Assembly (NCBI GenBank): GCA_015064555.1
Contig: SVRZ01000028.1
Location: forward strand, 1-35,157
Length of the DNA stretch: 35,157 nucleotides
DNA from: Oscillospiraceae bacterium
GTDB lineage: Bacteria; Bacillota; Clostridia; Oscillospirales; CAG-272
Reading direction: 5' to 3'
The translations under genes and the position numbers were made by a program. The notes under the pieces are model-generated. The model saw only the letters and a program-made list of their open reading frames with translations, did not search any database and was not told the DNA's origin. Positions 2,083 through 35,157 of this stretch are shown piece by piece. Numbering within the stretch: the first letter of the stretch is position 1; each line of letters starts with the position of its first letter.

Positions 2083-2360
2083 GAGTCATTAAGAATTCAA
2101 CAAAATCAAAACGAAAGGATGAAAATATCAGCAAAAAATATAATTTCCGCGAATTCTTGATGGCTCAGCCTCTCGGGGCAAAGGGATTTTGAGCGGAAAT
2201 CCTCGGCTGATAATCAAGCAAAGCGAGTCTGTGCCATGCACAAGAGAGCGCGCGTAGATTGTTCTTCGGTGACTCACGATAAGTGAGTACAGTGCGCAGC
2301 ACCAAAGGATGAAATCCTTTCACCGAAAAGAGCACGAACGATAAGCGTACAAGGGTACGC
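2083..2360 (+). ncRNA. Unassigned structured RNA-like element, copy 1
   Basis: No gene covers 2047-2612. A 16-bp helix pairs GAGTCATTAAGAATTC (2083-2098) with 2151-2166, using two G.U pairs and no mismatch. Then come a helix 2183-2189/2197-2203, the invariant block TCGGCTGATAATCAA (2203-2217), and a small hairpin UGUG/CACA (2230-2242). A branched domain follows: stems 2258-2264/2336-2342 and TTCGGTG/CACCGAA (2265-2271/2321-2327) enclose three hairpins at 2273-2287, 2292-2302 and 2304-2320. A last hairpin GCGTAC-AAGG-GTACGC is at 2345-2360. A second copy at the right end of the window keeps the helices with compensatory changes. G.U pairs point to function as RNA on the + strand. I do not recognise it as RNase P, tmRNA, 6S, SRP, T-box or a group II intron domain V. 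No + strand gene follows closely, so a cis-riboswitch role is unlikely for this copy. Confidence 0.6.
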
Positions 2361-26236: not shown

Positions 26237-26384
26237 GCCATTCAGGCATAACCAATAAAACAGGCTACGCCATTCAGCGTAACCAATAAAAACGGCAGAA
26301 GCATTGTCAAAAAAACAGTGCCTCTGCCGTACTTTTATAACAAGCTAAAGAAATTAAGCTTGAAAACCTGTGGTTTTCTTCATT
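26231..26384 (+). repeat. Dispersed terminator-bearing repeat, copy B, with a duplicated head
   Basis: This is the same element as 2398-2516, here on the plus strand directly after the regulator stop. The head is present twice in tandem (26231-26260 and ~26262-26290; GGCT..GCCATTCAG then TAACCAATAAAA), followed by the long hairpin, then GAAAACC-TGT-GGTTTTC (26362-26378). Both copies lie just downstream of a gene in that gene's orientation. Confidence 0.7.
26292..26330 (+). terminator. Rho-independent terminator after the AraC-family gene
   Basis: ACGGCAGA.GCA.TGT pairs with ACAGTGC.TCTGCCGT around an A-rich loop and is followed by ACTTTTATAA. The A-T pair of copy A is a G-C pair here (CAGA/TCTG against CAAA/TTTG), a compensatory change. 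It lies between convergent genes. Confidence 0.8.
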
Positions 26385-26406
26385 TTACGGTATTTGGTAT
26401 TATAGG

Positions 26407-28257
26407 TCAGCTCACCGTCAGGCGGTATACCTTACCCCTCACGGGTGCTTTTTCTGTAAGAGTTATTCTGCGCAGAGCATCGGTTCTCCAGCCGCCGGGA
26501 ATTGCCGCAACCTCGGGCTCGGAGGAATCAAGAAGCTCTATGCTGTAAGTAAGAGAGCTGTCAAACTCAACACGCCTGCCGGCTAAGACGAAGAAGCCCT
26601 CGCCCACCTCGCTCGGATCCTCGCGAACTATAAGGCTGCACATAACCGTTCCCTCCTCCTCGAAGAGCACCTCATCGGTTATTATTACCTTACCGTCGGT
26701 AAGCTCGGCGCTTCGCTTGTATGAGGAAAGCCCTGCCTCGGCAGGATAGGCGTGTGTAAGATCGAGTGTCATTTTTCCGCTCAACTCGTCATATACGGTA
26801 TCGGTCGAGCGAAAATCCGCGCCCGCTCTCTGCGTCACACCGTTGAAGGTCAGGCAATTATGATAGTCCGAGCACATTGCCCAGATAGTATATCTTTCCG
26901 AGCTGAAGGTCTTGCGCGTGTATTTTCCCGAGCCGGCATCAATGAATATCGGTTTACCGTCCGCAAATACGATGATATTTCCAAGGTCATTATGATTATG
27001 GCTCTCGTTATTGTTACCACCCTTCAGGGCAACGTAAAGTCCGCGCGAAAGCTCGGGATATTCACGTATAGCGGCTACCTCAAGACCGCCTATATAAATT
27101 TTTTCCGGCACGGTCAGCTCTGCCTTTTCCAATCGGCAGGTGGTTAAGAAGCGCATAAACCTGTATGAAAGGCTTGTGTCTGCCGAAACGCTCATAAGCT
27201 CTCCGCCAAGACGCCATCTTCCGAACTCGGTCATCATTTCTGAGCCGCATGCCTTGCCCCAATGATAAAGCAGCATGGGATTCGGGCTTGTGCGCGAGGA
27301 CGAGTCTGCAAAATTGAGCACTCTATCCTCTGTCACAACCACCTTGACGGCATATTCTCCCATATTCTTCATAAGGGGATCCTCAAAGATATTTACGTAA
27401 CCGCCTGTCATATCGTAAAGAACCAGGCAGGCGTTGAACAAGGCACCGCCTGCGGCATTCCAATAGCCCGGTCCCTCATCGCAGCCGCCATCGTTGTGAT
27501 AGATCGAGGTGAAGTTATCAAGAAGCGGCAAGGATCGGCTTACAACATCGGCTCTCGTCGCGGTATCCTTGACAGTCAAAGCTGCCACCGTAAGCACGTT
27601 AGATACTATCCAAGGACACCAATTGTTTACATTATTGCCCTTTACGCCCGACCACCAGAAGTTTTCATATACAAATTTATCACAGGTATACGGCTTTACA
27701 ATTCTACGATCAAGCTCGTAGAGAATACGATCGGAAATAATAGTCGTAACCTCATCGAGAATGTCACGGCAGAGGTAATATACCCATGCAAGCGTTGCCG
27801 CGGTGGTTGCCGCAAAGAGGTCTATATAATCGACCTCACCGGAATAGGCATACGGCAAGGGGCACTTCATATCCGACCTCTGCCTGTTATGCGCGGGTAC
27901 TACCCATGTGGTTTCCTCAAGTATAAGCCATAGCACGTCTATGAGCTTATCGGTAAATCTTCCCTGCCTATCTACGTACTCGCCAAGAGCAAGAGTCAGA
28001 AGCATATGCCTTCTCGGGAAATACCGTCCCTCAAATACCGAGCGGTTTCCATTGCCGCGGAACATCATATATTCGTGTGCATAGAGCTGAGGAATCTCGC
28101 GATCAAGCATCTCCTCCGCCGCATTTACAAGGCGCTTACGCTGCTCTTCGGGGATTACGAAGCCTCCCTCAATGTCGATGAAGGGTTTGAAATCATCAAA
28201 GGACAACACCTTATCGCAAAGATCAAATTTGTGCTCTTCAAACAATCGTCTTGACAT
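26407..28257 (-). CDS. Heparinase II/III-like polysaccharide lyase family protein, cytoplasmic
   Basis: 616 aa. The N-terminal ~380 residues are the alpha-toroid, with 'NNWCPW' (211-216) and 'DEGPGYWNAAGG' (260-271), which hold typical active-site Asn, His/Tyr residues. The C-terminal half is the beta-sandwich 'heparinase II/III' domain, with 'NNNESHNHNDLGNIIVFADGKP' region (His420, His422) for the metal site. Family knowledge: members eliminate uronic acid linkages in glycosaminoglycans, alginate or related acidic glycans. No signal peptide is present, so it should act on imported oligosaccharides. AAGGAGG lies 8 bases before the ATG. It ends facing the regulator gene. Substrate not deducible. 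Confidence 0.87.
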   Translation of the reverse strand: MSRRLFEEHKFDLCDKVLSFDDFKPFIDIEGGFVIPEEQRKRLVNAAEEMLDREIPQLYAHEYMMFRGNGNRSVFEGRYFPRRHMLLTLALGEYVDRQGRFTDKLIDVLWLILEETTWVVPAHNRQRSDMKCPLPYAYSGEVDYIDLFAATTAATLAWVYYLCRDILDEVTTIISDRILYELDRRIVKPYTCDKFVYENFWWSGVKGNNVNNWCPWIVSNVLTVAALTVKDTATRADVVSRSLPLLDNFTSIYHNDGGCDEGPGYWNAAGGALFNACLVLYDMTGGYVNIFEDPLMKNMGEYAVKVVVTEDRVLNFADSSSRTSPNPMLLYHWGKACGSEMMTEFGRWRLGGELMSVSADTSLSYRFMRFLTTCRLEKAELTVPEKIYIGGLEVAAIREYPELSRGLYVALKGGNNNESHNHNDLGNIIVFADGKPIFIDAGSGKYTRKTFSSERYTIWAMCSDYHNCLTFNGVTQRAGADFRSTDTVYDELSGKMTLDLTHAYPAEAGLSSYKRSAELTDGKVIITDEVLFEEEGTVMCSLIVREDPSEVGEGFFVLAGRRVEFDSSLTYSIELLDSSEPEVAAIPGGWRTDALRRITLTEKAPVRGKVYRLTVS

Positions 28258-34834: not shown

Positions 34835-34987
34835 TTCTGCTTTTAAAGTTTATCGTATTTATATCGAAAATCAAGATAAATTAAACAAAAATCCAAAGCA
34901 CAAGTTAGTGAAAAGCAACAATTTTTATCTCCTATCCATGATGCCGACATCACAGCAGAATAACAGTACTCAATGCAATCGGGGCTG

Positions 34988-35157
34988 TCTCATTAAGAAT
35001 TCAGGCATATCAATGATAAATCGGTAAATGACGGTTGTAATTACACGATTTGCGAATTCTTAATGAGATCAGAACCTTGGGGCGAACGGATTTAGAGCAG
35101 AAAGCGTCGGCTGATAATCAAACGCAAACGAGTCTGTGCTCGCACAAGCGAGGCGCG
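34988..35157 (+). ncRNA. Unassigned structured RNA-like element, copy 2 (cut by window end)
   Basis: TCTCATTAAGAATTC (34988-35002) pairs perfectly with 35054-35068 across a 51-base variable loop. The following core matches copy 1: TCGGCTGATAATCAA (35107-35121) and CGAGTCTGTGC (35129-35139) are identical. The helix before them (35086-35093/35101-35107) uses A-U and C-G pairs where copy 1 has G.U and G-C. The small hairpin UGUG-CUCG-CACA is kept with another loop. The branched half seen in copy 1 would lie beyond base 35157. The 34835-34987 stretch before it shows no gene. Confidence 0.6.

Follow-up and report, generated by a model that had tools for sequence, protein, structure and literature searches.

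The question raised by this locus is what kind of entity lies in the intergenic region near the left end of contig SVRZ01000028.1, of which a window of 35,157 nucleotides (the whole stretch of DNA that was analyzed) was available. The initial annotation had placed a structured RNA candidate at positions 2083–2360, counted it as present twice, found no known class for it and noted its position behind an Rhs module. The answer that we favor, with rather more confidence than doubt, is that it belongs to a non-coding, interspersed family of structured repeats of the Clostridia, which would be mobile in a non-autonomous manner, settle at the 3′-ends of genes and rebuild the terminators there. The window itself opens (2–1180 and 1191–2046) with a weak RHS-repeat ORF, which scores below the Pfam cut-off, and then two small ORFs that match nothing in Pfam; the gene 3′ of the small ORFs and the element is convergent and of the BspA-type leucine-rich-repeat kind. 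Since relatives of the element are flanked by what look like ordinary and varied genes, such as those for ATP synthase subunits beside L320, the Rhs neighbor looks incidental.

Positions 2083–2360 take in part of a larger unit, and the copy found there (copy 1) is a composite of a 5′-hairpin module, a core and an optional insert, all described here on the + strand. The 5′-hairpin module (2077–2172), drawn from the sequence, has arms at 2077–2098 and 2151–2172 with two G·U pairs. This is the “outer helix” of the initial annotation, the pairing of which had been described correctly (15 perfect base pairs in copy 2; 16 with the two G·U pairs in copy 1), but it is a separate hairpin and does not close the element. 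A pattern search located the start of a homologous module in six of 11 genus genomes, and in some other copies an unrelated hairpin stands in its place. Two blocks described as invariant between copies 1 and 2, TCGGCTGATAATCAA (15 bases) and CGAGTCTGTGC (11 bases), are present in both.

The core, insert included, runs from GGGGC to GCCCC (2175–2518), its boundaries being taken from aligned copies; homologues of both ends occur in the same genome, and positions 2306–2518 match a covariance model, R1, that was built from 31 copies. The extent first assigned has to be replaced, as most of the diagnostic helices lie beyond 2334. GGGGC (2175–2179) and GCCCC (2514–2518) pair as P1, the latter being placed as the 3′-end of the element by the model-aligned copies and the R1 match. 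P3 is formed by ATCCTCG (2199–2205) and CGAGGAT (2373–2379, from model-aligned copies), and its domain contains the optional insert (2211–2333) and an apical hairpin, AGCGTAC/GTACGCT (2344–2361). P4, which takes many covarying forms (GAAUAAAAAAC/GUUUUUUAUUC), joins 2382–2391 to 2485–2494, a strand placed from the model-aligned copies and U-rich in most of them; the two mismatches in copy 1 suggest that its P4 may be decaying. It surrounds the P5 hairpin (GAAAAAC/GTTTTTC, 2407–2423) and P6 (2446–2486), a variable, terminator-like hairpin drawn from the sequence, which precedes the U-rich P4 strand.

The junction of three hairpins closed by TTCGGTG/CACCGAA, to which the initial annotation had drawn attention, is indeed present in copy 1 but is located inside the insert, which is missing in short copies (e.g., L005, L006, and L007) and absent from several copies of the same genome. 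The first motif of the insert occurs eight times, six of these being in cores, one in a degenerate core (L013) and one outside a core. In the last case (L054) the motif, GATAATCAAnCGAAGCGAGTCTGT, is found on the opposite strand just outside an element copy, by its 5′-end, from which we surmise that the optional insert could be a repeat in its own right. A further palindromic insert, containing GACAGTCCnnnGGACTGTC, occurs within or next to copies of the element in RGIG5312 and RGIG4006 (L083, L094, L112, L138, L143, and ten other loci, some of which represent the same place twice), and looks like a nested repeat family.

The window holds three copies rather than two. Copy 2 (34981–35157, + strand), with its 5′-hairpin starting at 34981 and its core at 35079, is cut by the contig end and scores 24.6 bits with R1 on the part present. 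Copy 3 (26264–26386, − strand) is degenerate, retains the portion from P5 through P6 to the 3′-end, and lies between convergent ORFs; its R1 match covers 26261–26491 at 53.7 bits. Genome-wide, R1 finds 29 matches, some of them partial, in an assembly of 2.07 Mb in 44 contigs that is approximately 82% complete. A DNA search of this genome likewise yields many dispersed matches, which split into modules, the query up to position 151 often adjoining the part from position 275 onward, with the middle absent.

That the element is structured and shows genuine covariation is borne out in two ways. RNAalifold, applied to a MAFFT alignment made without reference to structure and hence free of bias towards the model, predicts 48 pairs, 29 of which show double-sided compensatory changes. 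Among 47 model-aligned copies from 29 genus loci and 17 distant loci, an alignment that is biased towards the model, such changes are seen in 43 of the 48 pairs; 96.4% of the cells are paired, versus 73.1% after shuffling and at most 50.0% after sliding, and the covariation score is 0.574 versus 0.171. Alignment A1 comprised 31 of 42 representatives, and A2 was made without L315, L327, and L333 as sources. By helix, double-sided changes affect all four modeled pairs of P1 (helix 1, in some copies), six of seven in P3 (helix 4), four of seven in the P3 apical hairpin (helix 7), all nine in P4 (helix 8), and five of six in P5 (helix 9), with just two pairs of P6 modeled (helix 10). The stretch 2060–2420 also folds better than all 100 of its dinucleotide shuffles (z −5.5).

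The core is a three-way junction in which P1 and its continuation bring the two ends of the element together. P3 bears a GGCGUAC/GUACGUC hairpin in addition to the optional insert, and the joining strands (AGCAGAA, AG, and CGGUUAUGC or CGGUCUG) are among the most constant sequence. Distant copies retain the complementarity of P1 and not its sequence, as in GGTGAT/ATCACC (L321), GGAGAT/ATCTCC (L330), and TGAATGCG/CGCATTCA (L320). The notion that the two ends derive from the target by copying was given up, since P1 hardly varies within the window's own genome, whereas the host hairpins differ. Some P3 domains contain CUGANGA...GAAA, which resembles a hammerhead motif; this reading too was abandoned, since other subfamilies do not keep it.

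G-U pairs outnumber A-C combinations by 111 to 17 in the 47 copies, in which two inner pairs show G-U in 18 and 19 copies and A-C in none, and it is therefore most likely the + strand that folds, either in RNA or, possibly, in single-stranded DNA. In the first alignment the forward fold has 76 G-U versus 20 A-C and the reverse fold 30 of each; for the 40 pairs common to both folds the excess is small (27 versus 18). The reverse strand had been considered as the functional RNA on account of the right-hand gene, which is antisense in 49 of 60 genus copies and 17 of 19 distant copies, and was set aside on these G-U/A-C counts.

Of 69 genus genomes, 61 contain R1 matches, up to 32 candidates having been scored per genome and some matches being partial or weak opposite-strand echoes. 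The wider search of Clostridia that the initial annotation had proposed, with up to seven candidates scored per genome, gave matches (E up to 1e-4) in 27 of 291 genomes and 19 of 181 genera; both counts include the genome of the window. With blastn, 15 of 40 relatives' genomes, again including this one, were positive, and all belong to the same genus. Scanning the genomes of named species with a pattern returned 98 stretches: 95 from RGIG “Clostridia bacterium” MAGs of the ruminant hindgut, one from an Oscillospiraceae MAG, and two from unrelated organisms, which look like chance.

No Rfam family matches the window at gathering score, nor the element in 19 distant loci, and sub-threshold matches in the window and its relatives are mostly of miRNA type and were taken as chance; the absence of a known class, as first proposed, has withstood this check. 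No description of the element was found in the literature consulted, although it may stand unlabeled among published candidate lists (e.g., PMC8040213). It is best read as a new interspersed RNA-structured repeat, probably mobile and non-autonomous, which may be transcribed, as the stand-alone RNA of the initial annotation would have to be, and may terminate transcription. A covarying RNA fold with no Rfam match that is this widespread in genus and class, often in several copies per genome, makes up a sizeable share of gut genomes for which there is no explanation.

Carriage as phage or plasmid cargo was rejected: blastn against phages and plasmids with one genus copy gave no match, and two viral scans gave zero and one. 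The single match is L335:3327-3352, a viral contig that shares the hairpin searched for (CCGAAGGCGTAY..RTACGTCGAG), close to the end of the L335 sequence. Copies adjoin head-to-tail in L333, L327, L117, L035, and G050:C26:46385-46843, and in the L333 and L327 arrays the outer part of P1 is missing at the inner junctions and retained at the array end. Many R1 matches in L149-L246 run off the ends of these sequences, mostly contig ends, and the repeats therefore seem to break assemblies of copy-rich MAGs.

One critical question is whether the family has spread by movement. Hand-picked core copies within a genome are nearly identical, with mean identities of 0.96 in G022 (six copies), 0.95 in G000 (five), and 0.92 in G011 (five), while the upstream flanks of the same copies show 0.50, as would be expected for unrelated sequences aligned in this way; between these three genomes, one core from each, the identity is 0.68–0.76. 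Near-identical copies in unrelated flanks are the pattern of recent spread within a genome and strongly suggest that the element is or was mobile, in agreement with the repeat or mobile-element character that the initial annotation had contemplated. A family of non-mobile host genes for a regulatory or structural RNA would explain the deep conservation of structure, yet copies that resemble each other more within a genome than between species, and that lie beside varied genes, make it very improbable.

The sites occupied by the copies are not random with respect to genes. Among 64 genus copies with at least 350 bases on both sides, 60 have ORFs on both (90-aa cut-off, by which small genes are missed); 36 of these 60 lie between convergent genes, versus 73 of 401 background gene pairs at the same loci, with 13 in the “--” arrangement (both neighbors antisense to the folded strand), eight in “++”, and three between divergent genes. 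The difference between 13 and eight is not significant; in the 19 distant loci the corresponding numbers are nine and zero. In 16 of the 17 distant copies with an antisense right-hand gene, its stop codon lies −4 to 22 bases from the end of the match. The left flanks of 34 composites are A-rich and their right flanks T-rich, and no target-site duplication above shuffles was detected in them (k 4–9; module starts were set by fuzzy match, and a few are possibly miscalled).

Strong hairpins, defined by a score of our own devising of 18 or more, abut the 5′-end of eight of 40 solo genus copies versus 30 of 2100 control positions, and lie within 22 bases of nine of 18 distant copies versus 3 of 177 controls. 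For the genus test 107 of the 122 matches were used, and some of the copies classed as solo have diverged modules; the distant test covered 18 of the 19 loci (all except L327), with the start offsets of six set by eye. Composites score 0 of 67 because loops longer than 20 fall outside the scan. The remaining 32 solo and nine distant copies have no strong hairpin abutting; several of these solo copies come after an apparent truncated element instead, and tandem copies exist.

The fba locus offers a comparison between species, although no exact empty site was found. Behind fba in the window's own genome a hairpin, the element and ATTTTTT follow one another, and the element is absent behind the gene in 20 other orthologues, in several of which, as judged by eye, a hairpin is directly followed by a T-run. 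R1, run over 22 fba loci, detected the own copy and, at 16.2 bits (E 0.039), a weak and partial match located directly behind the gene in L276. Read this way, copies of the fba type would separate a terminator hairpin from its T-run.

These positions also bear on a reading in which the element is a domesticated, bidirectional terminator repeat, retained for terminating both convergent genes, with its mobility being ancient or incidental. The EFAR repeats of Enterococcus are bidirectional terminators. For the SPRITE of pneumococcus, service to both convergent genes has been proposed (PMC3049150). The convergent sites, the stop codons usually near the 3′-end, the A-rich left and T-rich right flanks, and the fact that the 5′-hairpin of several copies, read backwards, is followed by a U-run (by eye) all agree with it. 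A terminator, however, would need neither a covarying three-way junction nor conserved joining strands; the two neighbors of nine of 19 distant copies point the same way, near-identity within genomes points to recent spread, and at copy 1 a simple scan called neither a terminator, P6 included, nor a promoter. We consider this reading possible and give it a minor share of our confidence.

Enzymes that might move the family were sought in 18 to 20 genomes. Reverse transcriptases (RTs) were found in three of 18 genomes and are missing in the copy-rich G011, G022, and G005; Y1 transposases occur in five of 18 and are missing in six copy-bearing but incomplete genomes (G000, G011, G007, G014, G024, and G002). 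IS1182-type transposases (DDE_Tnp_1_6) and TnpB-type nucleases (PF07282) were each found in 0 of 18 genomes, and the IS110 recombinase (PF02371) in 0 of 20. No transposase or RT tested, then, tracks the element, and TnpB, IS110, IS1182, and Y1 are disfavored as partners on the 18–20 genomes searched; this absence is weak evidence because MAGs lose multi-copy genes. R1 found no element in nine RT and Y1 loci, and a retron ncRNA was rejected, with no R1 match in three RT loci. When 16 loci were inspected for an autonomous, ORF-bearing version, they turned out to contain the core, to be internally deleted or to run into a contig end. The sole RT match of the window's genome (PF00078, E up to 1e-8; L247:1096-2322, − strand) lies by an RT-5 RNA (RF03026, 47.7 bits; L247:2510-2615, − strand).

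Three accounts of the mode of movement were weighed; they overlap with the reading that we favor, and their likelihoods are not meant to sum. In the first, the + strand RNA itself would move, as a retroelement- or ribozyme-like molecule copied into DNA behind terminator hairpins in the manner of group IIC introns. The strand asymmetry, the enrichment after hairpins, the tandem units and the lack of target duplication are all as this account would have them, and yet we judge it unlikely given the sparse RTs, the absence of Rfam matches to group II or other ribozymes on the element, and an own-genome RT that adjoins its RT-5 RNA in a 3.6-kb locus devoid of the element. In the second, a single-stranded DNA hairpin would be handled by a Y1/HUH transposase or a recombinase, as with REP/RAYT or attC. 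A folded single strand would yield the same kind of strand asymmetry, and no target duplication was seen; the patchy occurrence of Y1 in the 18 genomes searched and the lack of an invariant end sequence in distant copies speak against it, and we find it improbable. In the third, the element would be an ordinary MITE, with terminal inverted repeats on which a DDE transposase acts; complementary ends, small size, multiple copies and intergenic location are on its side. This account is quite improbable in view of the lack of target duplication in the 34 composites, ends that in distant copies keep their pairing while the sequence varies, the absence of IS1182-type enzymes from the 18 genomes searched, and the covariation of internal helices.

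Returning to the mobile, non-autonomous repeat that we favor, the following course of events may be proposed. The + strand would fold into the three-way junction, its two ends joined by P1, and the family, mobilized in trans, would reach new genomic sites. Insertion would occur at the 3′-ends of genes, often right at the base of an intrinsic-terminator hairpin, and a T-rich stretch would directly follow the 3′-end of the element. The GC-rich closing stem and the T-run would take over as the terminator, and the insertion would do little harm; the element would be tolerated because it is located at gene ends, where stem and T-run can replace the terminator that was interrupted. In nine of the 19 distant copies there is no obvious host promoter for the folded strand, since both neighbors are antisense to it. 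A stronger version, doubtful as yet and put forward tentatively, holds that the family represents a class of mobile RNA that is categorically new, namely a small, protein-less RNA, reminiscent of a bacterial SINE, the three-way-junction fold of which is the form recognized in moving, and which throughout the Clostridia inserts at terminators and rebuilds them with its closing stem and a T-run.

If the family is mobile, two possibilities arise: a mobile element that has RNA structure and no known enzyme, or a terminator that spreads and bears a structured domain in its loop. Should either be true, many genes would share a structured 3′-end or have an antisense structure beside it. Besides seeming to break assemblies, the element could mislead the annotation of gene ends.

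The comparison with known systems places the element near several of them. According to PMC8919778, group IIC introns insert directly behind rho-independent terminators and do little damage to genes, and the element resembles them in position, hairpin adjacency (8/40 and 9/18) being enriched and not universal; unlike them it has no RT that tracks it and no Rfam group II match, and its core of approximately 220 nt is self-closed. Prokaryotic MITEs are described as short, non-autonomous and intergenic with folded transcripts (PMC10969869), and the element would resemble them in all these respects. It differs in lacking a target duplication and in its internal compensatory evolution, and it has no family-wide constant terminal sequence, its paired terminal repeats being nearly constant within a genome and variable in distant copies. 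On the features compared it groups with neither group II introns nor MITEs.

REP sequences, associated with RAYT, are likewise non-coding, extragenic structured repeats, but by the account in PMC3733652 they measure 20–40 bp and carry a GTAG or CGTC tag, and the copies of the present element are not tracked by Y1 transposases (5/18 genomes). The BOX elements of pneumococcus, compared by description only, are modular and intergenic, with ends that pair in RNA, and copies are reported to be expressed; in contrast to the element they make target duplications (PMC3049150). SPRITE, as portrayed in the same source, is interspersed and terminator-like, enriched near the 3′-ends of coding sequences, and has AAAA/TTTT at its ends with no target duplication established. 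The element shares with it the 3′-end location and the A-rich and T-rich ends. Whereas SPRITE is an 18-bp duplex with a U-rich tract known from pneumococcus and S. mitis (PMC3049150), the element possesses a covarying three-way junction and is found in many genera.
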